The notes below the pieces were generated by a model. The model saw nothing but the letters and a program-made list of their open reading frames with translations, was not told the DNA's origin and ran no database searches. Below are positions 22,142 to 61,824 of a stretch of 64,000 nucleotides of DNA, in pieces. This stretch comes from Acholoe squamosa (taxonomy: Eukaryota > Annelida > Polychaeta > Phyllodocida > Polynoidae), in NCBI GenBank assembly GCA_949317995.1, contig OX439036.1, positions 89,627,920 through 89,691,919 of the forward strand, read 5' to 3'. Both the position numbers and the translations under genes were made by a program. Each line of letters opens with the position of its first letter. Position 1 is the first letter of the stretch.

Positions 22142-23484
22142 AATCCAAACATGGTGATCAATTATTTAAGACAGCCAAAGTGCAATTTTATTTGTATGAA
22201 CTTGGTGTATAGAATTGCAAGGCCAGGAAACTGTGTAGGCGGAGTATAGAAATTGAATATCGGTTTATTGACATCCAACCAACATCCAGAATCCCACCGC
22301 TAAATATGTTGGCCCTGGGTTCTGTTCAGAGTAACATGGTGCTTTTCCTTCAGATAGTGCCTTAGGTCTGTGGAGTGTTAAGGGCTGATGGCTTGCTATT
22401 GATTTCCAATCTTCTTTGAGCAGGGTGCCATAGCAGAGAAGGACCTTTGATACTGCAAGGGGCCTGAATACGACTCCTGTGCAGCCACTAGGAATAGGTC
22501 CGAGGCAAAATAGATGTCAGCAATAAAGGAGAACACTCACCACAGAAGTCATCAGGCCCTTGTCTGAAAGGGTAATGGGAGGTAATTAAAGAAGATAGAC
22601 AGAATGTATAAATTGCTCTCTGTGGGGCTAGGTTCATCAAGTCCTGCCCTCGCCTCCCCGCCCAGATAGAACAAGACATTATTAAGTAGAGTTCTATTTG
22701 GTATAGGAATTACGTACTGCAGTTCTTTCCAGCTTCACACATTCTATCATGCAAAGCCTTAACTAATATCGTTCCTTCTTTGATCTAAAATGAATAGTCC
22801 TGTGTTAGCTACTTAGTAAGAAACTCCATGTATAATTGTATAGTTTGAATTTGATGATTGCAAACTAACTAGTGAGGACAAATATTTGTGTGTTTAGGGG
22901 CATTTCATTCTAAAACATTTAAGGATTTAGGGAACAAGTCCTTCTTTGTTGCCATGGCAACCAATTTTCGGACTTAGGGAAACTCTACTCTCTAGAGTTG
23001 CTAAGGAAACTGGTTGCTAAGTGGGTAGATATGTACCTTAGGCAAGTTCACCTTGTAACACCTTTTTTTTTAATCATTTCTGCTTCATTCCTGTGTGTGC
23101 CATAACTTCAATTCTTGGGAATTCGAATGCGCGAAGTTTTATATGAGGTTGAGGCCAAATACAGGGATACGTTAAATAGCACTGACGCCTCTGGTAAAGT
23201 ACATAAGGTGTTCTTCTCTTTAGAACAGTTCCAGATCGTTGCTGCTAATGAAAACAAAAGTTTGATTGGAATGAATATAAGGATCGCCCAGTGGCACAGG
23301 ACTGGCAATGCATCATTCAATTTCCGACCATGGCTCATCCATCCTTATGTACTTTACAATGTATTGTCTATAAACTACATCAATCCACTCTCACTATGAG
23401 TATCAGATTTGTAAGGCCATCACCGTATATCAATTTTATGGCATTTTGAAATTCAATTTTGATCAGGAGGTTACTGAAAGCTCA

Positions 23485-23679
23485 GGGAGTGATCATTTTT
23501 TAACAAGGGGGGAGGGGGGTTGGTGCATGGGTTCGGCTGCGACACGTGAAATTCTTTTTACCCCCTGTAATGGATGAAAATCGCGTGCCACTAAACCCCC
23601 CAGTCAAGGGGTTGAACAAATTCTGATCCCCCCCCTCAAACCAACCAGCCCCCCCTTGTCATTAAAAATGATCACTCCC
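23485..23679. mobile_element. Harbinger-like MITE, copy 2
   Basis: GGGAGTGATCATTTTTTAAC at the left end and AAAAATGATCACTCCC at the right, followed by TAA. It is shorter than copy 1 (195 bp) and shares the G-rich then C-rich interior and the GAAATTCTTTTTACCCC block. The corresponding position in unit 1 (about 20,190) lacks it, which shows the insertion directly. Confidence 0.8.
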
Positions 23680-24055
23680 TAACACATGATTGGCTTGTAG
23701 CCAACATCAAATGTAAGTTATAACACTTGTGCGTGCATACATCACCCGATACCATACTTCACATTAGGGCTGTTCTCTTTTTTGTCAGTTGATATGTTAT
23801 TCTCGTGAGTAATGGCTATTGCTAGTAAGAGGGCACTGTTATTTTACAGCCTAACAGGTTATGTGTTTCCTGTATAAGGATATTATCATCCTCAATAAAC
23901 CTCCTTAGATCTAATTTAGATGGTTTCTTCTCCCTAAGTGCCATTCTCATTCTTATCCAACAGCATGCAATGGATTTCTAATGCCATTTTACCACACATG
24001 GTGTATAAACATGCAAGTCATGTCCTTACAAACTGCTCTCTATGCCCGAACAGCA

Positions 24056-24721: not shown

Positions 24722-25265
24722 GGTTCCTAGCTAGAGAAAAGGAGAGACCGTACTATTGCTGTTGCCTTTTCTTTCTTTTTGGTAATCTGTAGGACCCAGT
24801 GCTCACCCTACCCCATTGCATTAGGCTTTGAAGTTCTGTATTGAAGGTCCAGGTTTCACTAATCATTGAAGCATCCTAATTGGTCAATGTAATATCTATT
24901 ACTCGATTTGATTTATTAAGCCACAATTCAGCTTGGATGTCCAAGATGTAAACTTAAACAATATTACAATTAATATGATTCCGATGCAAAGGGTTCCTAG
25001 CTAGAGAGAAGGAGAGACCGTACTATTGCTGTTGCCTTTTCTTTCTTTTTGGTAATCTGTAGGACCCAGTGCTCACCCTACCCCATTGCATTAGGCTTTG
25101 AAGTTCTGTATTGAAGGTCCAGGTTTCACTAATCATTGAAGCATCCTAATTGGTCAATGTAATATCTATTACTCGATTTGATTTATTAAGCCACAATTCA
25201 GCTTGGATGTCCAAGATGTAAACTTAAACAATATTACAATTAATATGATTCCGATGCAAAGGGTT
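24722..25265 (+). repeat. Recent exact tandem duplication, 270-bp period
   Basis: 24,722-24,991 is repeated at 24,992-25,261 with one mismatch visible to me (GAGAAAAGG versus GAGAGAAGG). The shared junction motif is GGTTCCTAGCTAGAGA. Near-identity in an otherwise diverged region makes this young, or an assembly artefact. Confidence 0.9.
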
Positions 25266-35450: not shown

Positions 35451-35492
35451 AGCGCCAGCAATATGACACGGACTTTATATCGGTTGCCCGTC

Positions 35493-35597
35493 ATAAGGCC
35501 CCCAAGCCTTTGAGCCCCCTGACATAAAGCCCCCTGACACTAGGCCCCCATGACACAAGGCCCCCAAGACACAAAGCCCCCTGGACAGACGGCCCCA
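35493..35597. repeat. GGCCCC minisatellite
   Basis: Six or so degenerate units of 15-19 bp, such as AAGGCCCCCAAGACAC, ending GACAGACGGCCCCAAAAG and a T-run. Similar units occur in inverted orientation at 51,770-51,870 (GGGGCCATCTGTC). Confidence 0.75.
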
Positions 35598-35621: not shown

Positions 35622-36365
35622 CATGTACACGTTATGTACATGTTATGTACACGTGACGTACACGTTATGTACACGTGACGTACACGTTATGTACACGGTA
35701 TGTACACGTGACGTACACGTTATGTACACGTTATGTACATGTGACATACACGGTATTACAAGTTACGTACACGTTACGTACACGTTATGTACATGTGACG
35801 TACACGGTATTACAGGTTACGTACACGTTATGTACACGTTACGTACACTTTATGTACACGTAATGTACATTTTATGTACACGTTAGGTACACGTGACGTA
35901 CACGTTATGTACACATGACGTACACGTTAGGTACACATTAGGTACACGTTAGGTACACCTTATGTACACCTTCAGTACACGTTATGTACATCTTAAGTAC
36001 ACCTTAGGTACACCTTATGTACACCTTAGTTACACATTATGTACACCTTATGTACACTTTATGTACACCTTATGTACACATTATGTACATGTTAGGTACA
36101 CAATCGGTACACGTCGCAGTACATGTTATGTACAAGTCATGTACATCTTATGTACCGCCACGTACGCGTTATGTACACGTTACGTACATATTATGGAGAG
36201 CCTTATGTACACCTTACGTACAGCGTTATCTAGACGTTATTTATGTTCATGTTATGGAAGTGCACGAAAGGGGTCAGTGTAGATAAGGTGTTACACGTTA
36301 TGTACACGTTATGTACACCTTATGTACACGTGACGTACACTTTACGTACAAGTTATGTACATCCT
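35622..36365 (+). repeat. 11-bp satellite array 1 (GTACACGTTAT)
   Basis: Tandem units of 11 bp with consensus GTACACGTTAT and frequent variants (GTACACGTGAC, GTACACCTTAT, GTACACGTTAG). Slightly interrupted at 36,200-36,295. Because 11 is not a multiple of 3 and the unit has no stop in this orientation, all three plus frames read as an 11-residue peptide repeat (VHVMYTLCTRY). The many open frames here are therefore artefacts. Confidence 0.9.
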
Positions 36366-36904: not shown

Positions 36905-37060
36905 ATTTATGTACCCATAACGTACACCTTATGAAAACGTTACATACATCTTCTCTACACGTCATATGCTGCGACGTACATCTTATGTGGAGCTTCTTAC
37001 ACCTCATGTACACGTTACGTACACGTTATTTACATGTTAAGTACAATTTAGGTTCAACTC
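36905..37060 (+). repeat. 11-bp satellite array 2, degenerate
   Basis: About a dozen diverged GTACAC-type units, same orientation as array 1. Confidence 0.65.
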
Positions 37061-38021: not shown

Positions 38022-38293
38022 TTATTCTCGGTCTTCTAAGTAGTCAGGACTGCTCTCCAACAGTGCTACTGTCATTCTCTCGGTGAAGGTTTGGTACGTG
38101 GGGCAGGGCAATCTCAGTCTTATCATCTTCTCACAAGTGCTGAAAGTGGGTAGCCCCAACTGGTCTCTGGTCCTCTTCCTAAGGAACTCCACTCTCAGAT
38201 TTCTTTGGTTGATAGGCCTACTCATTTCTAGAGTGGGCATTCCCGTCATCGCCTCGTAGAACATGTTGACTGTGACAGGACCATTTTCTCCAC
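38022..38293 (-). CDS. HECT gene, last exon: catalytic C-lobe
   Basis: Encodes residues 621-710. The order FYEAMTGMP, NLRVEFL, LPTFSTC, YQTFTERMTVALL follows the C-lobe of HECT ligases, and Cys674 in FSTC sits where the ubiquitin-accepting cysteine is expected. The 3' splice site (TTAAAG/G at 38,294) lies inside one copy of a 101-bp tandem duplication (38,291-38,492), so a second copy of the acceptor exists 101 nt upstream; using it would shift the frame. The stop codon TAA overlaps an AATAAA. Confidence 0.85.
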
Positions 38294-41200
38294 CTTTAAT
38301 AGTCAATAGGAAATGTTGTTTTACCTATGGAACTGTACATTAACATTCTTGTCGAGAAATTCTGCTTTTAAGCAAAGTGTAATTAATAGTCAACCTTTAA
38401 AAGTCAATAGGAAATTTTGTTTTTACCTATGCAACTGTACATTGACATTGTTGTCAAGAACTTCTGCTTTTAGGCAAAGTGTAATTAATAGTCAATTCGG
38501 GACATTTACCTTACTCTTTTAATTTTTTTTCTCCGTATGAAAAGAATATTCTTCCCTATCCTTCCAAATAACTTATATCACAGACTTTTAATCTTTAATT
38601 TTCTCCCCAAAGGCTAATCAAGAAAAGATAAAGTTCCAACTTAACTTTGTAAAACAATAAAACAAGTTAAAGCTTTGCCAGAGTTCAGGGATTAGGTGGA
38701 GAGGGAAACATACACCTTATGTACACCTTAGGTACATCTTATGTGCACGTTAGGTACTGCCACGTACATTTCATCTACTTTGACGTACATGTGACGTACA
38801 TGTGACGTATACATGACGTACACGTTATGTACATGTTATGTACATGTTAGATACATCTTAATTACACGTCATGTACACCTTATTTGCTTTTCAGGTACTG
38901 TCATGTACATATATAAACTCCGAGGTACACGTTACGTACACGTTAAGTACACATTAGGTACAAGTTATGTACAAGTTATGTACACGTAATATACAGCAAA
39001 ATGTATGTCATTTAATTTCACTCACTTCTCAACTTACCTTCGCACTCTCGTATGTATCTCTTTAGCCACTCAACCGATTGGTCACAAGGGTCGCATTGGT
39101 CCACCTCCACTATCTCTCTGGCTGGCATCACCCTTAGTCGCTTGATGACATCTTCTGCTTTGATTTGCTCTGTCCGGGAACAGATGAAGCGGAACCCACT
39201 CTCATTCTTCTTTATGGCCTGGTGCATGTTTTCTAGTCCTGCCTCGAACCTGTAGAGCAAGTACTACTCAAATGTAACTCTTCTTCTATACTTTTTTTTC
39301 GAACCACATTACTTCTTCTCTTCAAATCCCTTTAGCTTAGAAACTAGTTGGCCAATTCTTAATCATAGACTCAACATCTTCCTTTCACTTCTCACTACCT
39401 CCTTCATTTTTTCATGTAAGAGTACCTACCTCTTGTATGCCGCTTCTTCCTTTCCTATCACCAATCTGAACAGTGCCCACTGACTTAACATCTTCTTGTC
39501 TTGGTCGAAGGTTTCTTCTGTTGATGTGCTTTCTTCTGCGGATAGGTCATCCAACATGTCTACCGAGTAGGCTGCTGCTGTTAGATGTGCGCTGTTCTCT
39601 GCGTTCTCCAACTGAAGGCGAAAATTATAAAATAATTCTCACACCCTTTTCCTTTTTTCCCTTACACTGTGAAAAACGTGTTTTAAAGGACTCACCAAAT
39701 TTCTCCACACCCAATTTTAAACACCTAAACACCTTAATTTTTTACATTTTTAGGTTTCAGAAAGTTGTCTACAACAAATGTCTTTAAGTGTTTAACACTT
39801 TTTGGTTAACCACCTTTACAAGTTCTATACACTAGTCTGTAATCGGGAAACCATTTTTTAACTGAAATACACTATGTGCATCAATTTCACTTACCCTTGA
39901 GATTTGCTCTGATTCATACACTGTTATATAGCCTTTGTGAAGGCACTCCCTTCTGTCTAGCAATCCAAGCAGACTGGGCAGGTTCTCGACACCCCTTGCT
40001 ACAACTATGGCCATGAAGTCCCCAATGAATGTCGGAGGCGGTCCGTTGACAGCCATCGAAAGTGCCACCGCAGCACCTAGGTCGTAGTATGTGTTCTTGG
40101 CCTCCTCTGCAAAAATTAAGTAGAAAACAGTTTTTTTTTCGTCACTGCCTTCTCATTTTCCTCTTGTCTTTCTTTTCTCCTTCATCATAATATTTTTACA
40201 ACATTTTTGGCAATTTTATTTCTATGAATTATCTTTGAATTTCTAGCAATTTAAACTTTTCCTTTGAATCAGGTAAATTATAGTAAGTGTTTCCAAAAAA
40301 TTGTGTTACTCATCACAGAAGTTCTTTTTACCTTCTTCCTTGTACACCAGTATTTGGTCACCTTTTCTTCCTTTGAAGACTGGCAGGTCCCCGCCCTCAG
40401 AAAGTACTCGGTAGAGGTATGCCCTCTGGCATCCCCCCTGGTCTATTCCCCCCGTACTTTTCTCTCCGTCTTCCCCCTCCTTTTTTCGTATGTCCACCAT
40501 CAAGTGTGAAGACAGGCTGTAGGGTCTCAACTGGTTTCGATTCTGGAATGACCTCCAAGGATAGTCCATGTTCGCGGCGATCAGGTTCTTGTAACTTCCT
40601 CGTTTTGCCATTTCTTGCCGTGCATCCCGCAACAGGCGGTCGACATCCCCCCTTTCATTTCTCTCCCCACGCACCTGGAAAGTTGAATTGCATTTTTTCA
40701 CTTAATCTCCACAGTCCCATCTCTTACTTAAAAAGACCTGGCCCATTGTGAGAAAGTCTGCATCCTTTGCCCCTTTCTATTCCCTCCTAGGGCCAGCAGG
40801 GGGCAGTCCCTCAGTTAAAGTGTGAAATATGTTTTTTTACCACAAATTTATTGGACATTAAATACGTGCTAATAAATGTGAGGTGCTAAACATCAGAAAA
40901 TCATTCCTTGAATATAAATATCGTTCAAAAATCACACACCAATTTTATGCACCTACTTCATGTTTTTCTTTTTAATATATTTCCATACTCTTTGAATACC
41001 GTGCCATAAATAAATCTAACAGGACATAAAGTCGTCATCTCTCATGGTCCCTTCTTCATCTATGTTTGCGGAATAACTTCTTTTCCACCTGTACACCTAA
41101 TTTCACCATTTTTTATGACTTTTTGGTCCTCGGAGATTTTTAGTCTAGGTTGTCAGCAGACTTCTCATTCAAACTGCACAGGCCTTAGGTTTAAGTTAAA

Positions 41201-44200
41201 CCATCAAGAAGTATTTCCCTTACCCCTAACCAGAGTATCCGCAGCCAGATGTCCCCATTGAACATTGCAGAAATCCTCAGGTGGTCGGGGGTTTCATCAT
41301 CCAGCATCACTATTCCACTTCTGATATCCTCTATTTCAAAGTAGCTGGTTGACCCTTTCAGAGTCTTGACAAAGTCCAGCACAGCCTGTAGAAAAAAAAA
41401 CATGGCATCATTAAGTTCGTGTTTCCCAAAAATAAAGCACCACAGTCATATCTCCTTTTCACCTCCTTCTAGCTTTTTCTCTCCCAATATTTAAATGAGA
41501 CTATTTTCTATAATACATCACGTCATGTACAGTTTATGTACACTTCAGGTACACCTTATGTTCTGCTACGTACACGTTACGTACCCGTTATGTACTGCCA
41601 CGTACACGTTACGTACACCTTACGTACTGCGACGTACACGTTACGTACACGTTACGTACTGCGACGTACACGTTACGTACACCTTATATACTGCGACGTA
41701 CACCTTATGTACCCCTTCATTTCACTTTTTTTAACCCTTGTGTGCACCTTCTGTACTCCCACATATACGTCTAGTGAGACTCTTTTGTACTCATCCCCTA
41801 GTTCCCTCGTATTAATCCAGTTTAAGACCTGATTACTGTACATATACCTTCACTTTCTCCCGTGGGTCAAACAGTCTCTGTGCGCGGATGAACCCCTCTC
41901 CTATCATAGTTATGCTCCATGCTAGGTCATCCTCATCCGATTCTGGGATCACCATCAGCTCCTCCTCCTCATTTATCAGAAGAGGTTGCTGTACTACGTT
42001 GTTAATCTGTTGTATGGGTTGCTGTACTTGGTTGTTATCGAGGCCTACCGGTTCATGTTCTTGGTTGTCATTAGGCGCTACAGGAAACTGTACTTGGTTG
42101 TTATTCTGCACTGCTGGTTGCTGTATTTGGTTCTGAACTGGCAAAACTTGCTGGGGCAACAGGTTCTCGACCATGAGTAAAGGTTGATGTACCTGGTTGT
42201 TAACCTGCTCCCTAGGCAACGGCACCTCCAGTTGTCCTTGTACATCTCCTGTCTGTGGTATAGGAAAACGTACTTTACCTACCTTTTTTAAACTCAAATA
42301 ACCTTGTACACACATAAACTTTAGTTTTTCCCCCCACTCATCTTATGTTAGGTATTTTATCCTCCTGGCAAAGTACAAGTACAAATACCTTCTTCATAAA
42401 TTACTTATCTCTTTACTCTCAATGCATTCAAGGCCAACTTCGACTATATAGCTCACCCCATCGTAGTTCTTACCAGTTGTGTCGGTAGTACGAAGATTAG
42501 GTCTCCTCTTTCTATCCAGTCAAGGTTCACATCTCTCAGCCTGTTTCCTCTTCCCCTCTGTTTCAGTCGGAATCCCTCTACCCTCGGCCACTGCCTACGT
42601 ACGTACATTTTCCAGTCTTCATGGGTCCATCTGTTGTTTATCATTGCTCCTCCATTCGATCCCCTTCGGAAGTCATCTCTTGCCTTTCCTTCAAAATCAA
42701 AGTGACTATATTAACTAAGAGGAATTATCTTAACAAATCAAATGGGCCCGAAATGTTACACCTACAGATTCATATCGGTTCTATCGATTCTATATATGTG
42801 ACCCATCCTTACAAAATGGTTCGGAAGTCGCACATGCAAAATGTTCAGTTATTGGCATATTCTTTTGCAGCTCATCAAGAGCATTCATTTGGTACATAAC
42901 ACTTGCATATTTGAACCAGGTGGTCCTCTCTAGATCTTCTTTAGGAACATTTAGTCGGATCGATTAAAAAATGATTTAACTGAGATAATTCACATATTAA
43001 ACATTTAATAATCTATGAATCCTATATGATTCCTATGTTATTCTATATAACCATTAAAATTAGATCTATGTCTTTTGGGCATTTGGGACGTTAATTCAAT
43101 CTAGTAAGCAAGGATTCTGAAAGATATGTACCCATATGTAAGAAAATGCTAAAATATCAATTTTGAAAAATCTGATATTTTTGACACTGTACCACTTGAA
43201 AGGGCCATATCTTGGCTTCTATATGTGCGACTTCAGTACCACTTTGTTAGGATGGGTCACATATGCTTACCCAATCCCTCTGCATCCAGTTGCGGCAGCA
43301 TCAGGTTGAGGTTAGTCAACCTCGTCGTTTCCGGCCTTAAGCATATCACTTCTACTTCGATAGCTCCCCTGTTTGCGTTTCCTTGAAGAAAAGCAATTAA
43401 AAAATTAATTCCCTTCTGTTGACCAGCTTCCTTTTTTTTTTCATTCAGCTCAGTAAATTTCCTTTTTCCGAAGCCTTGAATTAATAACTTAAAACAGCTT
43501 TTAGAGTTAAATTTCCCTTTTATCCCGACAAATTTTAAAAATCTGTTCTAACATTCTTTCTTGTGCCAAAAGAAGGTTCGAACAAACACACATATCTTAA
43601 GTCCTCTTACATTCAGCATTACGTCTGGGTTACCTTCTCATAAAATGGAAACGTACGGGAAACACAAAGAATGCACCTAATAACATGAGCATCCAAAACA
43701 TCCTCTGCAGTCAAATTAGTTATAACATTTTGAGCCAACTTTTTCACTCCCACACATCATTGGTTTAAACATTCAGAGTGGCACTCAGCAGCAAGTGTGC
43801 ATAAGGGGTCATTGTACCTAAGGTGTGACTGTTCTGAAGCGTCAGTTTAAGTAAGGGGTGAGTGGTACTAAGGGTACAGTGGCTATCTGGGGTGAAAGTA
43901 CACTACCTGTCAGAGTACATAAGCAGTGACCTATTGCTTCCTGCTCTGAGAAGTATATCCTTTGTACAACGTTACACACAGCTTATCTTCAGCTTTCCTT
44001 ACCTTTTGTTCAGTGCCGTGCATCTTATGTTCCCCTAGGAACACGTCTTTTTTAACCTTTTGTACACGTGATGTACATCTTACGTACACGTTATATACAC
44101 ATTATGTAAACGTTATGTACAAGTTAGGTACACGTTATGTACACGTTAGGTACACGTTAGGTACACGTTAGGTACACGTTAGGTACACGTTAGGTACACG

Positions 44201-47200
44201 TTATGTACACGTTAGGTACACGTTAGGTACACGTGACGTACACGTTAGGTACACCTTATGTACACCTTAAGTACACCTTAGCTACACGTTACGTACACGT
44301 TATGTACATGTTACGTACACGTTATGTACACGTTATGTACACGTTATGTACACGTTATGTACACTTTATGTACACGTTAGGTACAAGTTAGGTACTGCGT
44401 CGTACGCGTTATGTACATGTTATGTACTGCGAGGTACACGTCATGTACATGTTACGTACACGTTATGTACACGTTATGTACACGTTACGTACACGTTATG
44501 TACACGTTATGTACACGTTATGTACACGTGACGTACACGTTATGTACACGTTAGGTACATGTTATTCAACGTTATGTACACGTTAGGTACACTTTATGGT
44601 ACACGTTATGTCCTGCTCGAACGCGTTATGTACATCTTATGTACTGTGAGGTACACGTTATGTATGTCTTATGTACACCTTATGTACACGTTAGGTACAC
44701 GTGACGTACACGTTAGGTACACCTTATGTACACGTTATGTACACGTTATGTACACGTTATGTACACGTTATGTACACGTGACGTACACGTTATGTACACG
44801 TTAGGTACATGTTATTCAACGTTATGTACACGTTATGTACACGTTAGGTACACGTTAGGTACACGTCATGTGCTGCTCGAACGCGTTATGACATCTTATG
44901 TACTGTGAGGTACATGTTATGTAAGTCTTATGTACACCTTATGTACACGTTAGGTACACGTGACGTACACGTTAGGTACAACTTATGTACACGTTATGTA
45001 CACGTTATGTACACGTTAGGTACACGTGATGTACACGTTAGGTACACCTTATGTACACCTTAAGTACACCTTAGCTACACATTATGTACACGTTATGTAC
45101 ATGTTATGTACACGTTATGTACATGTTACGTACACGTTATGTACACGTTATGTACACGTTATGTACACTTTATGTACACGTTAGGTACAAGTTAGGTACT
45201 GCGTCGTACGCGTTATGTACATGTTATGTACTGCGAGGTACACGTCATGTACATGTTACGTACACGTTATGTACACGTTATGTACACGTTATGTACACGT
45301 TAGGTACATGTTACATACACGTTATGTACACGTTATGTACACGTTATGTACACGTTATGTACACGTTATGTACACGTTAGGTACACGTTATGTACACGTT
45401 AGGTACACGTTAGGTACACGTTAGGTACACGTTAGGTACACGTTAGGTACACGTTATGTGCTGCTCGTACGCGTTATGTACATCTTATGTACTGTGAGGT
45501 ACACGTTATGTATGTCTTATGTACACCTTATGTACACGTTAGGTACACGTGACGTACACGTTAGGTACACCTTATGTACACGTTATGTAAACGTTATGTA
45601 CACGTTAGGTACACGTGACGTACACGTTATGTACACTTTATGTACACCTTAGGTACACGTTATGTGCACGTTATGTACACGTTATGTAAACGTTATGTAC
45701 ACGTTATGTGCTGCGTCGTACGCGTTATGTACATCTTATGTACTGCGAGGTACACGTTATGTATATCTTATGTACACCTTATGTACACGTTAGGTACACG
45801 TGACGTACACATTAGGTACACCTTATGTACACGTTATGTACACGTTATGTACACGTTAGGTACACGTGAGGTACACCTTATGTACACGTTATGTACACCT
45901 TAGGTACACGTTATGTGCACGTTATGTACACGTTATGTACAGGTTATGTACACCTTATGTACACCTTATGTACACTTTAGGTACATGTTATGTACACGTT
46001 AGGTACTGCTTCGTACGGGTTATGTACATGTTATGTACTGCGAGGTACACATTATGTACACGTTATGTACACGTTAGGTACACGTTATGTACACGTTAGG
46101 TACACGTGACGTACACGTTATGTACACGTTATGTACACCTTAGGTACACGTTATGTGCACGTTATGTACACGTTATGTACAGGTTATGTACACCTTATGT
46201 ACACCTTATGTACACTTTAGGTACATGTTATGTACACGTTAGGTACTGCTTCGTACGGGTTATGTACATGTTATGTACTGCGAGGTACACGTTATGTACA
46301 CATTATGTACACGTTAGGTACACGTTATGTACACGTTCTGTCTTACACCTAATGTACACGGTATGTACTATTGGTTAACCATGTACTATTATGTACACGT
46401 TCTCTCTTACACCTTAAGTACACGTTATGTACACGTTATGTACAAGTTATGTACACATTATGTACACGTTATGTACACGTTAGGTACACGTTATGTACAC
46501 GTTATGTGCACGTTAGGTACAAGTCACTGACCTACTTGAGGTTTCCCATAATACACTAGGTTCATGGAGGTTTCCTGCTAATTACCATAAGTAGGTCAGT
46601 GGTCTGACCAATCCCATTGGCCAGACCAGGTCATATGGTGACCACCTTATGGTAATTAGCATAAACCCTCCACCAAAAAAAGTCTATTATGGGAAACCTC
46701 AATAGACAGAATCTACATGAGAGGAAGACCGACGTACATGTTATGTACAAGTTTTGTGCTCTTTATGCACACATTATGTACAAGTCCTCTAAACCTTATG
46801 TACTGGGAGGTACACATTATCTACTATTTTTGTACTGCCATGTACCTGTTATGTACACGTTACGTACACATTATGTACATGCTATGTACACATTAGGTAC
46901 GTCTTATGTACATCTTAAGTACACATTAGGTACATGTTATGTACACCTTATGTACACGTTAGGTACATGTTATGTACATGTCAGGTACACCCACGTACAT
47001 TTCAGGTACACTCACGTACACCTGCCATGTACCCGTTATGTACACCTCACCTACACGTTATGTACACGTTACGTACACTTTAGGTAGACGTTATGTACAC
47101 ATGACGTACACTTTAGTTACATCGTATGTACGTCTCACGAAAAGAGCCATAAACCTTATGTAACAGTTTTGTACTCTTTATACACAACTTATGTACAAGT

Positions 47201-52576: not shown

Positions 52577-53009
52577 AGCCTGGGACATGTTTCATATGAG
52601 CTTTTAACTCCAGCACCGTGCTCTTTCGTGCTGTTTCTTTTTCCGCCTGGGAACACTACCTCACGGCCATTTCATCACCCTTTCTTGAACCCTTAGGTTC
52701 AGGGTACGAAAACAATAACAAGAGGGGATTTGGAACGTGACTAGAGACAGAAGGAGCCGGCTAGTTGGTAGGCTCAGGCGAACGGCTTGTTCAACCCTTT
52801 CCTGGACTCTTTGCCCCTCTCTTGCAGGCAGGGTACTTCGTAGAGGTAGGTACTTTTCTTCCCTTTATAACCTATTGTTTTAACAAAAATTGGGCAGATG
52901 TCGTACTGACATGCAGTAGGTTCCCTCACTTCTTAGTCAGGGGCTAGCCATATAAGACGGTAGGCCAAATTCTACTGTACTGCATGGGTCTAGACCCCTA
53001 AATTCGACA

Positions 53010-53225
53010 GGGTGACATGGGCTTTTCTTAAAATCGACATGTGACATGGAGCTTAGTGACAAGGACATGGAGAATGAAAAAGTTAGTGACATGAGACATG
53101 ACCTTTCCTTAAATTCGAACTGTGCATGGAGCTTAGTGACAGGGACATGGGGAAATAGAAATTTAGTGACATGTGACATGTCCTTTTCTTAAAATCGACA
53201 TGTGACATGGGGACCCCCCATCTAG
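53010..53225 (+). repeat. GACATG repeat block, copy 1
   Basis: Contains TTCTTAAAATCGACATGTGA, GACAAGGACATGGAGAATGA and GGGACATGGGGAAATAGAA, the unit being repeated imperfectly three times. The whole block recurs at 54,238-54,455 in the same order and orientation. Confidence 0.8.
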
Positions 53226-53469
53226 AACCCCTACTCCCCTCCCCTCTTTCCCCCCCCCCCCCACCCATCTTTCTAAGCCAATTTTCCTCAAGAACAGGCT
53301 GAACTTGTCATGCCTGGGATAGCTTTTGCAGGTCTGTTTGCAGGTAGCGTGACTCGAATAAGAAAAGCAGTAAGAAGTGACTCTCATTCCTCATCTTATA
53401 CATGTCCATCCGCTAGGTGGTCTTCTTCCTATAAACATAAGTCATAATGGCGAGGACATGTCCATCGCG

Positions 53470-53545
53470 AGCACATGTACGTCGCTGTACATAACGCTGT
53501 ACGTAACAGTGTACGTTACGGGTACTTTGCTGTACGTAACACTTA
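53470..53545 (-). repeat. Short GTAC satellite patch in reverse orientation
   Basis: GTACGTAACA / GTACATAACG units about 15 bp apart. Read on the minus strand they give GTTACGTAC and GTTATGTAC, so this is the one patch opposite to the main arrays. Confidence 0.5.
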
Positions 53546-53775
53546 ATTCGCTCTTCCTTACTATAGGTCTCGGGCTTCCTTAGCCCACTTGAAAGTCTAT
53601 TTCTCCTCTTTCCTATCCCCTCGGTATGTGTGTGGTTCACATATCCGCGGCCACTCACATATTCCTCTGTGAAATTGTGTTATGTAATTCTCGCCATGAA
53701 TATGAGCTTAGCTGTCGAAATGGCGTTAAAGATCTATTACTCACTCACTCACTTACTCTTGGTCTAGGCCCCTAA

Positions 53776-54233
53776 GGGAGTCAACTTTTTTTAACTTCAG
53801 GGGGGTTTCACGGGGGGTCAGAATTTTTTCATGTTATGTACATGTTAAGTACACGTCAGGTACATCTTATGTACACCTTATGTACACTTCAGGTACATCT
53901 TATGTACATGTGAGGTACACGTACGTACATTTCAGGTACACTGACGTACACCTTTCCATGTACCCGTTATGTACACGTCACGTACACTTTATGTACACCT
54001 TATGTACACATCAGATACATGTTATCTCCAATTTAGGTAAAATAATTTCACCTGTTTTCAGTGGAAAACCACGCGTGTTACTATAGGCTAAAAGGGGACC
54101 ATCAGGCGCCATTATTGTCCCTTATGGGGGGGTCGAACAATTTTATCCCCTCCAGAGAGGGGGGTTGAAATTTTTTTCGCCCGTCCGCCTGCAAACCCAC
54201 CAGCCCCCCCCTTGTTAAAAAATGATCACTCCC
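53776..54233. mobile_element. Harbinger-like MITE, copy 3, containing an 11-bp satellite array
   Basis: GGGAGTCAAC at the left and TTGTTAAAAAATGATCACTC at the right, flanked by TAA at 53,773-53,775 and 54,234-54,236. The sequence up to GGGTCAGAATTTTTTCA and from AAAATAATTTCACCTGTTTT onwards matches copy 1 (118-434). Between them, where copy 1 has a second GGGGTCAGAATTTTTTC segment, copy 3 has about 210 bp of 11-bp satellite (53,831-54,044). Confidence 0.85.
53831..54044 (+). repeat. 11-bp satellite array 7, inside a MITE
   Basis: About 19 diverged units such as GTACATCTTAT and GTACACCTTAT, in the same orientation as arrays 1-6. Confidence 0.85.
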
Positions 54234-54237
54234 TAAA

Positions 54238-54455
54238 GACAATGGGGTAACATGGCCATTTCTTAAAATCGACATGTGACATGGAACTTAGTGACAAGGA
54301 CATGGAGAATGAAAAAGTTAGTTACATGAGACATGACCTTACCTTAAAATCGACATGTGACATGGAGCTTTGTTACAGGGACATGGGGAAATAGAAGTTT
54401 AGTGAAATGTGACATGGCCTTTTCGTAAAATCAACATGTGACATGCGGACCCCCC
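54238..54455 (+). repeat. GACATG repeat block, copy 2
   Basis: Direct copy of 53,010-53,225, starting immediately after the right end of MITE copy 3. Confidence 0.8.
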
Positions 54456-54877
54456 ATATAGACCCCCCTTCCTTGTATACAGCAAAGGCTGCGAGAAACC
54501 ATAAATAACCCTTTGACTTACACTCACACTTTGCAGGCGGGGTATAGAAAATGTTATAACGCAAGCCTATAGTAACACATTTACACTGCCTACTTCCTTA
54601 GGCCTAAGTGGTTCTCTTAAATGTTATAACAATAACTAGTCCGACAAAGTTATGTCTTCACTGGGTTTTGGGGGTCGAAGGGTCATGGTTTCTCCCTTCT
54701 TCAAACATTAAATCCTTGTCTTTCCTAAACGCTTTTTTTCACAGGCAATATAAGATGTCCTGTAATAACATGGTTAGGCAAGATAGTTGATTTCCCCCCC
54801 CCCCTTGTTTTTTTTTTTTTTTTATTGGATGTGTCGGTCACTGATTTATTCCCTTTTGTCGTACTTTTTTCCTTCAG
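54456..54877. other. Region upstream of the FLYWCH-MULE coding sequence
   Basis: Contains a C-run and T-run (54,795-54,823) followed by CCTTCAG at 54,877, a good splice acceptor. A non-coding first exon may therefore lie further upstream, but I cannot place it. Confidence 0.4.
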
Positions 54878-54899
54878 ACGTGCGTGATGGAAAGGAAAG

Positions 54900-57800
54900 A
54901 TGAACTTTGCTCTAATCGATTTTCCAGACATCTCGGACAACAGGGAAAGTGATATTGAAAGCGAAGACTCTCGTCTTCAGAGCAGTGGGAACGATGGTGG
55001 AGAGAACAGTCACAGCAACAATGAAGATCCTGATTCTGATCAAGTAGATCAATATGAAAATGATGATTTCGATTATTATGATAATGCCCACGATGAATCC
55101 GATCATGGAGATGAAAATGAATATGATCAACTTGATTATGATGCTTATTCTGGTGATGATGAATTAGAGGTAGGAGTAGATGATGAAAATGACGACAACC
55201 GAGGGGAAGATGATGATGACAATGCAAACTCTGACTATTATCAGTTTGATGAGGAAGATGAGGAGTCTTATTCTGGTTCTTCTCAAGGAGATGAAGGTGA
55301 AGGAGAAGGAGAAGAGTCAGAGGGGTATGAAGAGGGCAATGGTGAGGAAGGCCACAATAACAGTCTTGATGAAGAACAAGACGATGAATTAGAGGCAGGA
55401 GTAGAGGATGAAAATGACAACAACAGAGGGGAAGATTATGATGAGAATGCCAACTCTGACTATTATGATTTTGATGAGGAAGATGAGGAGTCTTATTCTG
55501 GTTCTTCTCAAGGAGATGAAGGTGAAGGAGAAGGAGAAGAGTCAGAGGGGTATGAAGAGGGCAATGGTGAGGAAGGCCACAATGACAGTATTGATGAAGA
55601 ACAAGATGATGACGGGACTGATGAGGAGGACAACCATCTATTTCACGATTATGAAATGTATGCCCGTGCAAATGGAGAAGACGATAACGGTGAAGGTATA
55701 AGACATCAACGAGGTGAAGCTGACGGCGGTCATGCAAACGATGAAGGTTATCCTCTTAATCCTGTCCGTGGTGAAGCTGACCAAAATCCTCAGCCACACT
55801 TTGATGATGGCGATGACAATGGCGTTGAATTTGGGGAAATAGAGAAAATTCGTACCCACCGTGGTCAAAGACACTACTACATCGCACTCGATGGGTACTT
55901 GTATACTCACAAGAAAAATTACTACCCTACTGATGGGGGCCCAAGGACTGAGACATGGGAATGTAAGAAAAGGACACACAATTCAACGGCTAATGGAGAC
56001 CAAGCCGAGTGCCTCGTGCGACTTTTGCTGAAAGGTGATACCATTCGCTTTTCAAAGAAAAGGACTGTAAGTAAATTCTTAGTTCATGAAATTGCAAAAA
56101 AAATTGTCTCTAAGATTGCACATGAATTTATTAGCTTGTCTCCCCAAAGAAATTACCTTGTTTGGTGAAGTGGATACATTCAAGGGGGAGGCTGCCTCCG
56201 AGAAATGTTGGTGTCGGGTCAGTTCCCTTTCAAGGGGTACACTGCTGTTGCGGAGGTAATTTTCTTTAAAAGGTGAACTCTTGCCCTCTTATGTTTGAAC
56301 CATCAAAACAAACTGACGTCACAGCTTTCCTATGCCTTTTTAAATACTTTAGCTCTTCAAAATCCCATAAAATTGCATCCAATTTGCCTAATCAGGTCAA
56401 AACCTCAGGTATAACCCCTGATATGTATTCTTATCTGAGGTTGTGGTTTTAAATAGACTTTATCCTAACCTTTTGTTGTGTATTTTTAAGAACCCATAAG
56501 AAAGGTCAACTTTTGCCTTATTATTGCAGATTTCTACTTAGGTGTGTCGTCTACGGCATGTATAGGGGTCAGGTCCCCACAAACCAGTATATTTAGTTTC
56601 TTAGGGTTATTTAGACTCTTTTGGCTTCAGAGAAAGAAATTGTTCAACGATTTTGTCTTCCATAGCACATAGCTTTTTGAATTTTGAAAATCCATTCGTT
56701 AGAAGAAAAGTTATTTATTCTTTTTATTTTTTGGACCATTTTCTGAAACTCTGGGTGCTCCTTACACGCGGGACATTACCGTACCTAATTCTAAATCAAT
56801 TATAACACATGACAATAATGGAGCTTCAAAATCATTCTTACTACTGACATGAAGTGCCCTATTACCCCTTCCTGTGGTGAAAAAAATCGTGTGTTCATCT
56901 TCATCTGTCTCCATTTGAGAGCCGCTTAGGTGAAATAATTCTGTAGAGGTACATAACATATAACCATAGCGTTGGGTACCGTCTGACGTGGCGGGTGAGT
57001 CGAGTCGTCGGACGTTCCTCAGGTTCCGGATAGGTGGCAGCACCAATCCGGGTCTGTGGGGACATCTGACGACGAACACCTGGGTCCTTATATAAAGTCC
57101 AGGGCTCAGCCGCTACGTCAGAGGCCCTTCTGGCCTCCGAAGCATGTACAACAACATTGATAATTACTAGCTGCCCCTTCCATACTATCGGGTAGCCGTG
57201 AGTGTGCATTTGTAATAAAATCTATCCATCGGCATACACTTGAAACACCGAATTGTAAGACCCGAACCCCCCAGGTCCGTAAGGCCACAACCCCTTACAA
57301 TTCGAATAAAAGTACTGGACCTAAGTAAGGTAGGGTACTTTTATGATCATGGTAGAGCTAGTGTACTGTGCATGCTTAAGTTAAATTTGGTTCCATTTTG
57401 TTATAGAAGTCAATCATAGACATTTATGTAATTTTATTCCCAGTCTTTCTTAAGCAAAGGTGGGATTCTTATATTAATGAGATGAATGTAATAACCTAGA
57501 TTTTTCATCATTTTGGTAACGGACCTTACATGACACAAAATAAGCAATAAAAATGGAAATGGACATCCTAATTTCTTTTATTGGGGTTTTGGGAGTTGAG
57601 GGGATGTCCCTTTAAAAATTTGTTAAGGTTATATAAAGTAATAAGAAAAATAATTTTTCAGGCCCTTGAAGGGCAGAATATAAGACTTTCTGGCGACCTG
57701 ACCCGAACTATGCAGGGAAGTTCATTATCTTATTTCGTTTCGTTTATTTTTCTTCTTTTCCTCTCGCCTCTCTCCCTACCCAGGTTCACACTCACCCCCC

Positions 57801-60800
57801 TGATAATGCTGACATTGAAGTAGCAAGGACAAAGGCCCGACTCCTTGATCAAGCAGAAAACTCTGACGCTCGCCCCAGTGTAGTGGTTTCCCGTGCCCTG
57901 TTTGGAATATCCAATGTAGCAGATGGGAGGCTACCTGATGAGTCTGTGAGTACACTATAATCCTGACTTCTCCTTTCTTTACTTCCCTTATTTCCCGCAT
58001 ATAAGACGCAGTGCGCCTATAAGACGCTCCCCAAAATGACGGTAGGCTTGTTGGCGTAGAGGATGCACCTCTTAGGTTTAATTTTTGTTTTAAATTCAGT
58101 CCTATTCTATATTAAAAATGGGGCGCGTATAAAACGCACCCCAAAATCAAGGCAATTAACCTCCCACATGTAACCCCCAGAAGCATTTTTTGGGGCGTAT
58201 AAGACGGGAGATAACAGTACGTGTAATTCTCCTTTTCGCATAGAATAACTGCTTGAATGAATGGATGCTGTTAATCCAGGGGTTAATTCATTTTCCCTCA
58301 CAGCCCCCGACAGGCCTTTATTACTTTTGGAATAACATAAAAACTGTATGTCTTTCTACCTCCAACTTTACTTAATTTGTTCTATGTGTTTTACAGTCGC
58401 TTTACCGGACAGTTAGGCGAAAAAGGGCAGGCCAAGCTGACCGTCCTGTCGACCCTGGAAATGTACAAGAAATTCCGATTCCGCTTCCACATCGATATAC
58501 GATTGGCCCGCGAGGAGAACCCTGGTTACAGTGGGATTCGCAGGATGCAACTCGCACCTTGATCTTTGGTGAGCATCTAATGTCATGGGATTCTCACTCT
58601 GAAATAAAATAATGAAGCCCTGCAGGTTACACGTAGAGTCTTGTTCTATTCTTGCTCTAAAATCTAATAAGTTTTTCATTTTAATTAAGCCAAATGTCCT
58701 TAGACCATAGCCTTTTCCTAAAGAGGGTATGGGATGGTATCCGAAAATCACCAGATGGCCTCTTCAAGGAAACCCTAGCTCCGAGTTTAATAGGGGGGTA
58801 GCTAATTTCCAGTGTTAAGAGTCTATAGTCTAGAGTTAATTAACCCATAGTATTTTCCATTTTCATATATGCCTTTAGTGCATATGGCATGGAACATACA
58901 TGGCCATTTCATGGGAATATGATATGGGCGTTAATAAGATCCAGTCACCAGATGACCCATACATATGATACACAGTCCGTAGTGGCTCTTCTTGTATGTT
59001 TATAGGACTAAAACAATATACACTTATAACGACCCTCACCCTTCTGGACTACCTAGATCATGTATATACGTAATAAATACTCCAACAGTCACCTGCACGC
59101 ACCCCTAACCTATACCCTCTTATAATTTTGCTAGTTACACGTTACAATCCAGTATACAACTGCCTTATAGCCCCTTCCCCTTCTGTTATAACCAAAGTCT
59201 TAAATCAGTTCTTTTATAACACAAACCTACTTAAATTTGTTATAGCTTCCGTTCCTTTCTCTTATGACAGACTAGTCAGGACTAGTTTCAGTCTTCTTAG
59301 AAAAGATTATCATGTACAGACATAATCAACACATCCCCAGTCACCTGGAAGCAGCCCTAACCTTCACCAACACATGACAATCCTGGCTCAGGAACTGAAT
59401 AAAGTAGAGACCATTGGCCTTACTACTCCGTTGTATTACCCTGTGGCATTTCCCCATCGTATCAGTTAGGCTTTAAGTTTGTGTATCGAGTTAATAGCAC
59501 CTTAATGACCCAACTTTTCTACAATTCATTCTCGCCTTCACCTTTTTCCTGTAGCCTCTGAAAGGTGCCTGGACGTCTTGGCCAATTGTGCCCACTGGTT
59601 CATGGATGGCACTTTTGCTGTCTCCCCTCGTGCCTACCATCAATTGTACACAGTTCATGGACTGGTGGGCCTAGTGAATGTGCCTTGCGTTTACATACTT
59701 ATGCGAAGAAGAACGCAGCATCAGTATGAGAGAGTTTTCGCTATTCTGAAGAGGCTAAGACGCATGAGGCCCTCAAGTGTTCTAGTTGACTTTGAACATC
59801 CAAGTATAGTAAGTCCTTTTTTCACATCCTAATAGTTCATCACTTTATCTGGGTACCCCCACATGTAGACTTTCAGGTAAGGGAGAGGTAATTTTTCATC
59901 CACAGGGTGGGGGCTATAAAAATGTTGACCCCTCTTGAGGGGGGGGCTAAAAAAATTTACCCTCTTTTGAGCAAGAAAAACTCTGCGCGCTACCATAGCT
60001 CACAGAGTAGCAGCATGAAAATTCTCACCGCCTCCGTTTGGGGGGGCCCCTAAAATTTTGGCTCCAGGGGGGGGATATCTTGTTATCTTCGAGGTTGCAC
60101 GGTGGACTATTGATATATGTACGCAATATTTCAGCGTTTGTGCATTGCGATTGAAATGTTGGTGTTGAAATCTATATAATTCAGAATGCGCTGCGCCACG
60201 AGTTCCCTCGGGCTGCTGTGAAGGGCTGCTACTTTCATCTGACACAGTCTGTGTGGAAATACATACAGAGGACACCCGGTGCAAAGTGGGCCTACCAACA
60301 CATTCCAGAGTTTTCAATGACATGCCGCATGATACCAGCAATCGCCTTTCTCCCACCAGGTAAACTACTCCAGGATATATGCATGTCTGTCCAACATATA
60401 TTACATAAATATTAAAGAGCAGATCACTTTATGTCTACAGTACCTCCTTGGAAATGGTACTACACTTTTCACAGCTTTCGTCTTATGTGTGTTAAGGAAT
60501 GCCTTGATTTCTTGGACAATATTTTTTATGTCACTGCTCCAGGTTGATTAGGCCACTTCTTTGACAGGAGTATCTCTGGCTGGTTTGTCAGGTGTACTTG
60601 TTTTTTGGTGTTCAATGCATTTTTAACCTGTCGGACAAATTGCTGTCTCTTTTTTATCTTGTTCTTTTTTTTCTGTGTGTCATCCGTTTTAATAACCATT
60701 TTTATTTGTGATTGATTTTAACCCTCCCTGCCATGTTTATTCCGTTTCGTTCCTCTTGGTAGGGAATGATAAGTCCTAATTATCTTAGTATAAATGGGTA

Positions 60801-61824
60801 CGGAATTACAGCTATGCTCTGTCTTTCTGTGATTACAAAAATTTGGTATGAACGATAACATATCCTGAAACTACCGTATAAATTTTGGAATCATTACAAT
60901 GTACGGCAACATAAAAATATCTGGTATTAAGACCGTGGCCATGTGAAAAAAAGTAAAATCTTATCCTAATTCGCTGATCCTAGATATGGAACCTAAGATT
61001 TCAGCCTAATCTATATTCGGATGCTAATATCCTATCTGTTGCCCCCTGGGATGTCATGATGTTCCCAGAACCTATTCATGGGTGTGAACATGGTACTCTT
61101 ATCTAAATGCGTGTGCAAAGAATATAAACGACCCCATTCTTCCTTTACACTTGACAGCTAGAATGAAGAGAGCCCTGCGTTTTCTTACCATGTATGCTGT
61201 GCACTACAACCACCACCTACTCCTGCAGGATACAATTGAGTACTTTGCGATGTACTATACTGGTAGGTTCATTCACATGGATTCACATGGATTTCTCAAG
61301 CTCTACAAGTCATTGTTTTTTAAAAATTCCATTCATATACCAATATTTTAAGTGCATGTGAAGAAAATGGATGTTTCCCATATGAGGTGCAGGACTTTTA
61401 ATTCACCTTTCATAAGTATCATTTATCTCCCTTTTTTCCAACAGGTACGAGCCACACAGAGCCTATGTTTCCGAGGGAACTTTGGTCCGTTGCTGACCGT
61501 GTTTCTGATGCCCTTCCAAAAACAAACAACGCCCTCGAGGGTTGGCATCATGGCTTTTCTACACACCTAGGGTGTGACCATCCTTCTCTCTGGGCTTTCC
61601 TTGATGCTCTGCGTGAACAGAATGCCAAGCAACATTTGAAACAGGTTCACGCTGAACAAGTTCGGCGTCTTACTACGAAACGTGGGTCCATGTGGTCGCG
61701 TGTACAACTGGCTAATATATGGGCACGCTACCGTGATCATTTAGAGGATCTGAACACTCCGCTTCATGGACCAACAGTCATCATGTTCCTCAGGGCTGTG
61801 GCATATAACTTTCGCATGGTTTAA
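54900..61824 (+). CDS. FLYWCH zinc finger-MULE transposase protein, 7 exons, 804 aa
   Basis: A Mutator-like DDE transposase: it would bind element ends and cut and join DNA in the nucleus. Exons: 54,900-56,066, 57,784-57,945, 58,397-58,568, 59,555-59,808, 60,185-60,359, 61,158-61,262, 61,445-61,824. Every junction is GT/AG, phases agree and the sum is 2,415 nt ending in TAA. Residues 1-310 are Asp/Glu-rich. About 320-393 is the FLYWCH finger (GYLYTHKK, W-E-C355, C371, H391-T-H393), split by intron 1. MULE core: CAHWFMDGTF (Asp518), VLVDFEHPSI (Asp579), the C600-x2-H603 motif GCYFHLTQ, and TNNALEGWHHGF (Glu710). The start was chosen as the first ATG in this frame, with A at -3. No frame break is seen, so it is a live or domesticated copy. 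Terminal repeats of a parent element were not found. Confidence 0.92.
55158..55607 (+). repeat. 225-bp in-frame tandem duplication in the acidic N-terminus
   Basis: 55,158-55,382 is repeated at 55,383-55,607. Each encodes 75 residues beginning DDELE and containing DEEDEESYSGSSQGDEGEGE. The two copies differ by a handful of substitutions, concentrated in the first third; the rest is nearly identical at the DNA level, which implies recent duplication or gene conversion. Confidence 0.9.
57250..57306. repeat. Palindrome in intron 1 of the FLYWCH-MULE gene
   Basis: CGAATTGTAAG and CTTACAATTCG enclose a C-rich segment of about 35 bp. It follows a GC-rich stretch (56,930-57,245) with TATATAAA at about 57,091 and AATAAA at about 57,212. 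Confidence 0.6.
57985..58222. mobile_element. MITE with CGTATAAGACGC ends, in intron 2 of the FLYWCH-MULE gene
   Basis: CCCGCATATAAGACGC at the left and GGGGCGTATAAGACGGGAG at the right are inverted, with internal repeats GCGTATAAAACGCACCCCAAA. Elements with GCGTATAAGACGCACCCC ends are common in animal genomes (from memory). Confidence 0.6.
59165..59305 (+). repeat. Interspersed repeat shared with 36,690-36,815
   Basis: CTTCTGTTATAACCAAA...CAGTTCTTTTATAACACAAA...GACAGACTAGTCAGGACTA, in the same order and orientation as at 36,690. It lies in intron 3 of the FLYWCH-MULE gene. Confidence 0.6.
59876..60090. mobile_element. Distant relative of the Harbinger-like MITE, in intron 4
   Basis: TAAGGGAGAGGTAATTTTTC at the left recalls TAAGGGAGTGATCATTTTTT. 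Inside are G-rich GGGGGGGCTAAAAAAATTTA blocks and CTGCGCGCTACCATAGCT, similar to CCGCGCGTTACTATAGGCT of copy 1. The right end is not clear. Confidence 0.45.
60450..60690 (-). pseudogene. Possible coding remnant, antisense in intron 5
   Basis: The minus strand reads a basic stretch (KKRQQFVRQVKNALNTKKQV) followed in another frame by a similar stretch (IVQEIKAFLNTHKTKAVK), as if two copies of one short motif were decaying out of frame. No family is recognised and chance is a serious alternative. Confidence 0.2.

Follow-up and report, generated by a model that had tools for sequence, protein, structure and literature searches.

The window, a stretch of 64,000 nucleotides (C2:89627920-89691919) of a genome of 1.48 Gb in 63 contigs, contains the left part of a very long transposon, and nested in it is a Harbinger-type MITE with an internal array of an 11-bp satellite. 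The features are given below by their positions in the window.

35473-35481, + strand: left 9-bp target-site duplication CTTTATATC, its partner lying directly after C2:89731939
35482-64000, + strand: left 28.5 kb of a 68,539-bp MULE transposon (whole element C2:89663401-89731939, the remainder past the window), recognised by its termini, target-site duplication and a near-identical copy
35482-35506, + strand: left terminus GGTTGCCCGTCATAAGGCCCCCAAG, present at 55 genome sites with at most 2 mismatches
35492-35596, + strand: G/C-rich subterminal tandem repeats (AAGGCCCCC-type units)
35623-36361, + strand: first array of the 11-bp unit GTACACNTTAT, its first unit 144 bp inside the terminus
36998-37045, + strand: short remnant of an array of 11-bp units
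38022-43547, - strand: possible cargo gene, one ORF being weakly HECT-like, below cut-off
38711-38995, + strand: diverged 11-bp array
41519-41717, + strand: diverged 11-bp array
44061-46521, + strand: main array of the left arm, 2.4 kb
46734-47131, + strand: array with the presumed template of the MITE array in its middle (46904-47094)
53572-53755, + strand: module adjoining the MITE, found between arrays in two short elements of the family
53773-53775, + strand: TAA directly left of the MITE
53776-54233, + strand: MITE (copy 3) within the giant element, holding an internal array; recognised by TAA flanks, inverted ends and homology to copy 1
53834-54025, + strand: 192-bp array within the MITE, in place of a G-rich middle segment
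54234-54236, + strand: TAA directly right of the MITE
54888-61824, + strand: probable transposase gene of several exons, with the MULE domain in two of them (exon borders placed by eye)

The nested MITE displays the 3-base TTA/TAA target duplication and the terminal inverted repeats of a Harbinger-type element. Its right 20 bp are an exact match to the terminal repeat of the family and its left 20 bp have three mismatches; none of 100 dinucleotide shuffles of the window gave a match to the terminal repeat. TAA or TTA also stands beside most ends of the MITE loci examined, as read from the printed ends without a count. The internal array is composed of GTACACNTTAT-like units and obtained scores of 117 and 147 in Tandem Repeats Finder. 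To its left, copy 3 is 76.6% identical to copy 1 (117-435 of the window) over 64 bp, and to its right 87.4% over 206 bp; copy 1 has a G-rich tandem segment at the place of the array. The first-pass annotation had described just this arrangement, the satellite inside copy 3 where copy 1 is G-rich, with matching MITE sequence on both sides and TAA at both ends, and it is confirmed in these points, except that the array given there as about 210 bp measures 192 bp. It had also called copies 1 and 2 free of the satellite. This holds for copy 1 (locus L009), in which no 11-bp unit was found; a shorter copy with both ends present, at 23484-23680, is presumably the one meant by copy 2. Two regions with tandem units of ~80 bp (GACATG...ATCGACATGTGACATGG), at 52996-53231 and 54231-54467, are 89% identical over 237 bp and flank the module and the MITE on either side, and similar ~80-bp units are also present in another locus (L089, near 4040-4240).

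Since MITE sequence lies on both sides of the array with TAA at both ends, and satellite-bearing MITEs are known in other organisms (PMC9659126), the MITE family itself could have carried and spread the satellite, as had been proposed from the window alone. Two first looks at the genome gave 3,921 and 3,059 candidate MITE loci, of which 40 were scored in each. The sample used here comprised 58 loci (56 genome places, copy 1 included) with the best scores, a choice biased to well-preserved copies, and only extents and unit counts were taken from it. Neither GTACA nor TGTAC was found inside the MITE in any of these 58 loci. The whole genome was then searched with exact-word patterns for the two MITE/array junctions (MITE words together with two GTACA 11 bp apart, within ~35 bp). 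Each junction occurs at two genome places only, one in C2 and one in C5, and the reversed-pattern controls gave 0 matches; full-length matches of the MITE together with its array were likewise confined to these two places. The two loci are identical over 3,464 bp, including 1.5 kb of flank on each side. Because the flanks are identical too, the MITE with its array did not move by itself, and the C2 and C5 copies are one MITE which was copied within a far larger unit. An array in several independently inserted MITE copies was thus not observed, and the arrays elsewhere are bounded by MULE ends. As far as tested, copy 3 is unique and the other arrays lack a MITE flank, an outcome which the annotation itself had named as pointing to a one-off insertion. 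A MITE-borne satellite was therefore rejected, and it is scarcely credible that the MITE family spreads it.

The larger unit is a transposon. When probes along C5 were compared with the window, identity was found to begin sharply at 35482 with GGTTGCCCGTCATAAGGCCCCCAAG, and the left flank of the C5 copy has no match in the window. The C5 element occupies C5:57500819-57570691 (69,873 bp) on another chromosome. Both giants are bordered by perfect 9-bp target-site duplications which differ in sequence, CTTTATATC in C2 and GTAGTATAG in C5. The right terminus was deduced from two short elements and is present at 65 genome sites with at most 3 mismatches; it was not found inside the loci L089 and L115. 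Reversed-pattern controls gave no genome match for either terminus. The terminal sequences are asymmetric, the left one being GGTYGCCCGTCATAAGGCCCCCAAG and the right one, read inwards, GGTTCCATGGTGTAAGGCCCCCAAG.

When the nearest left and right ends on the same strand within 120 kb were paired, 45 elements were obtained from the 55 left ends, with 10 left and 20 right ends remaining without a partner. The shortest element measures 846 bp and the median is 3,021 bp; the two longest are the giants of 68,539 and 69,873 bp. Target-site duplications were inspected in 19 pairs. In 11 of these, both giants included, the duplication is perfect at 9 bp; among the other eight, three have one mismatch, three have two, one has three and one has five. 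A duplication of 9 bp lies within the 8-11 bp of MULEs. Terminal inverted repeats are also present in the form of imperfect outer termini and inverted array arms, the outermost bases differing between the ends. The long inverted arms of tandem repeats are those of a Foldback element, and in the element at C1:45355445-45359014 the left arm matches the inverted right arm over ~1.1-1.2 kb at 74%. Helitron-like one-ended movement had also been considered and was dropped after both 9-bp duplications were seen.

Tens of kilobases of nearly identical sequence shared by two chromosomes would also fit a recent segmental duplication, or an assembly artefact. A segmental duplication had been entertained when identity seemed to end at C2:89702896 / C5:57540302 without a target duplication, the sequence of this edge occurring at two genome places only. 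This edge is internal, because the right terminus was found beyond it and 1,554 bp of C2 are missing from C5. Moreover, the boundaries of both copies coincide exactly with the termini that delimit 43 other paired elements. The flanks of the two are unrelated and carry a separate perfect 9-bp duplication at each place, and real indels distinguish the copies. Duplication or misassembly is thus very improbable. The 9-bp duplications at both giants are the mark of MULE insertion, and the giant has recently spread to a second chromosome.

The 11-bp satellite belongs to the ends of this family. The arrays of one orientation which had been noticed between 35.6 and 54 kb are real by Tandem Repeats Finder and run forward throughout the left arm. 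In bins of 1 kb along the C2 giant the units are forward in bins 0-18 and reverse in bins 46-67; bin 68 has 14 reverse and 3 forward units, and there is one more forward patch in bin 40. The arrays in the window share one orientation because the left arm of the giant is forward and the right arm reverse. Outside the element no 1-kb bin of the window has three or more units. A 270-bp unit is present there in two tandem copies, 99% alike, at 24722-25265.

Twenty left ends were sampled, and all of them have a different flank followed by the terminus, the G/C-rich repeats and GTACAC units. The first unit lies 94-155 bp inside the terminus in all 20 (median 142.5), and in four the orientation of the units changes in the course of the 310 bp read. 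Perfect runs of units gave the same picture genome-wide: all 100 four-unit runs considered, out of 179, are in elements or next to them, 90 falling in paired elements and 10 at most 6 kb inward of an unpaired end. The same is true of all 37 six-unit runs (36 in paired elements, 1 by an unpaired end). Together with their margins, the elements account for 0.03% of the genome. Of 1,769 dimer places, the first 100 fall in the C1:45.36-Mb element (48), in the C2:39.09-Mb element (39) and at C1:103358415-103359340 (13). Near this last array neither a left nor a right terminus was found in the genome-wide terminus searches; it may be the remains of an element or an array that truly stands alone. Such a locus is what would be expected if the satellite were an ordinary genomic one into or beside which transposons merely insert. 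Against this stand the 20 sampled ends, which have unrelated sequence on the outer side and the array at nearly the same distance on the inner side, and the 137 listed four- and six-unit runs, all in or beside elements, so that an ordinary satellite can hardly be upheld. The 11-bp satellite is a built-in terminal repeat of the MULE family. Hence the earlier suggestion that a transposon carries the satellite and accounts for the scattered arrays stands as to a transposon, and fails as to its identity, the carrier being the MULE family and not the MITE.

The coding content agrees with this assignment. Each half of the Pfam MULE domain has a match in one ORF, at 59509-59832 (E 0.0024) and at 60155-60415 (E 0.0073), both below the cut-off as single ORFs. 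When the ORF pieces were joined, with splice sites judged by eye, the domain was recovered with an E value of 1.9e-10 and 41.5 bits against a cut-off of 27.6. Outside the two giants the two exons carrying the domain have no genomic counterpart at 98-99% identity, and the next relatives reach 70% at most. A third stretch of the joined query matches the giants at only 83% with a stop, because the joined query skips sequence. Judged from these matches, no member of the family but the giants seems to bear a transposase, and the ~50 shorter elements with the same ends would presumably be derivatives moved in trans. Two longer elements with these ends, C8:49261473-49271917 (10.4 kb) and C12:33667166-33683587 (16.4 kb), gave no match to the transposase query; the latter has a perfect 9-bp duplication, GTAGGGGAG. 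Transposases of the Phantom group often, though not always, have a FLYWCH domain. A FLYWCH-like motif was seen by eye, and no FLYWCH domain was obtained in the 426-aa ORF or the joined protein at E values up to 1.

In the region of the possible cargo gene on the minus strand, the 4.6 kb at 39300-43900 is present in full only in the two giants. HECT and SEFIR matches were set aside as weak and below the curated cut-offs, and the HECT match disappeared when the ORFs of the minus-strand candidate were joined. A scan of 18 ORFs and 2 joined sets, 20 sequences in all, named no gene besides the MULE at a curated cut-off. Some 470 bp within the cargo region (42793-43265) have at least 38 further full-length matches at 95-96% across the genome; with its short inverted-end matches this is another abundant MITE-like repeat nested in the giant.

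Our data thus indicate that the satellite-bearing MITE very probably lies in a Mutator-superfamily giant of 68.5 kb with satellite ends, and that the patched MITE travelled inside it and is not a spreader of the satellite. The array within the MITE probably came from a sibling array of the same element. It is 88% identical over its whole length to 46904-47094, 7 kb upstream, and the two share irregular units, namely 10-bp units and a CCATGTACCCG unit; its next best match in the window and the other sequences compared is 81.4%. In a comparison of 19 array chunks, from which the MITE array was omitted as a query and was compared separately, the 46.9-kb chunk matched the MITE array better than anything else beyond its own array. 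An identity of 88% alone proves little, because values of 86-93% are also reached between 192-bp chunks of the main array and other arrays. The reading as a template rests on the reciprocity and on the shared irregular units, within the sequences compared. The direction of copying would be from the 46.7-47.1 kb array into the MITE, because the array there is longer than the patch.

The patch is best read, from such comparisons, as a one-off templated copy made inside the giant. A MITE with TAA flanks lies within the giant MULE. Its G-rich middle was probably broken and then mended with ~190 bp copied from the sibling array 7 kb upstream, as the reciprocal best match suggests, and gap repair or gene conversion could have been the route. 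The patched MITE was then carried along within the giant and does not spread the satellite itself. The transposase encoded by the giant produces the 9-bp target duplications, and its ends consist of the termini, the G/C-rich repeats and the long 11-bp arrays. Alternatively, two MITE fragments could surround an old piece of array, or the MITE could have landed in an array, its middle being removed later by recombination. The unequal divergence of its ends, 77% on the left and 87% on the right to copy 1, is in keeping with this, and so is the module adjoining the MITE (53572-53755), which is found at 87-89% identity in short elements at C2:80.96 Mb and C4:62.56 Mb, each time between arrays. However, both MITE parts are collinear with copy 1, of which only the middle is missing, and the degraded array remnants just upstream (53460-53545, by eye) are opposite in orientation, whereas the patch matches 46.9 kb in forward orientation. 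Such an origin is rather unlikely, and a templated copy remains the preferred reading.

Comparison of the two giants points to a fast turnover of the satellite. No difference between C2 and C5 was seen in 8,370 bp covered by eight probes and two other pieces. A further 7,378 aligned bases have 2 mismatches and 1 gap, identity is 99.8% over another 2,000 bases, and for a piece of 4.6 kb it is given as 100%, the lengths differing by one base. Identity in the compared single-copy stretches is thus 99.8% or more. The right arm nevertheless seems to be ~2.9 kb longer in C5. The spacing of perfect four-unit runs in the right arms is in step over the first five and then diverges, and between that point and the terminus C5 has 2,896 bp more, by arithmetic on the listed positions and not by alignment. 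C2/C5 offsets of 3-14 bp fall within array regions. The 1,554 bp at C2:89702897-89704450 absent from C5 contain six forward units and have CTCAA at both edges.

The founding paper on Phantom reportedly described foldback-like termini. Muta1 and other MULEs of Aedes aegypti have been placed in the Phantom group (PMC5225508, PMC6446971), and Aedes MULEs are described with subterminal tandem repeats of 9-15 bp, target duplications of 8-9 bp and many derivatives (PMC5225508). The present family resembles them in the MULE transposase, a target duplication of that length, long terminal repeats that include subterminal tandem repeats, numerous non-autonomous derivatives whose middles are foreign, and identical copies as a sign of recent activity (PMC5225508, PMC6446971). 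It differs from Muta1, which has 3,198 bp and 9 copies of a 12-bp repeat, in having kilobase arrays and a transposase-bearing element of ~69 kb (PMC5225508, PMC6446971). Minisatellites are reported in Rehavkus and aphid Phantom elements (PMC6446971). Tm1, a Mutator/Foldback element of root-knot nematodes, is likewise similar in its 9-bp duplication, its composite termini of tandem motifs in unequal numbers at the two ends with asymmetric outermost motifs, and its Phantom-like transposase, but it measures 0.17 to 2.5 kb in the genome search of its own authors and has 1-9 units of a mostly 14-bp motif (PMC3169594). Tetris of Drosophila virilis is of Foldback type with terminal tandem repeats which form satellite-like arrays and feed satellites; its units are of ~220 bp, and it is apparently non-autonomous with an inferred autonomous partner, whereas here the partner is seen (PMC4079207).

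As to size, complete MULEs of 1.4 to 10.0 kb are given in a screen of 4,268 arthropod genomes (PMC13359780). In the accessible part of a review of giant transposons the efficiency of DNA transposition is said to fall above ~6 kb, no size above 7 kb is given for Pack-MULEs, and no giant MULE is named (PMC6431247). Polinton/Maverick and Teratorn resemble the giant in that tens of kilobases move as one unit, but they use other transposition machinery (PMC6431247). A giant MULE was not found in the literature by title or the start of the abstract, in a search outside which most subscription journals lay. Subterminal repeats in MULEs are thus already known, and a mobile MULE of ~69 kb greatly exceeds the sizes found in the searched literature.

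A one-off patch in a MITE is ordinary; a recently mobile MULE of ~69 kb with satellite ends is of real interest. The 68.5-kb member and its near-identical sister, each with a perfect 9-bp duplication, demonstrate that such an element can move, and they are a natural pair for studying how. They also offer a clean case of a satellite which is part of the working ends of a transposon and from there seeds other sequences. It is conceivable, if doubtful, that the MULE acts as a giant gene-carrying vehicle. Ends ~69 kb apart were still joined and moved; the arrays could perhaps be landing platforms for the transposase as well as a template for patching breaks anywhere in the element, and the cargo might be of use to it.

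MULE transposases with the same exon spacing were also seen at C2:22533870-22536125, C3:40254589-40256844, C7:35012016-35014272 and C8:4228896-4231151. These are the same or nearly the same among themselves and share 55-70% identity with that of the window, which looks like another transposase-bearing MULE family, and a young one.
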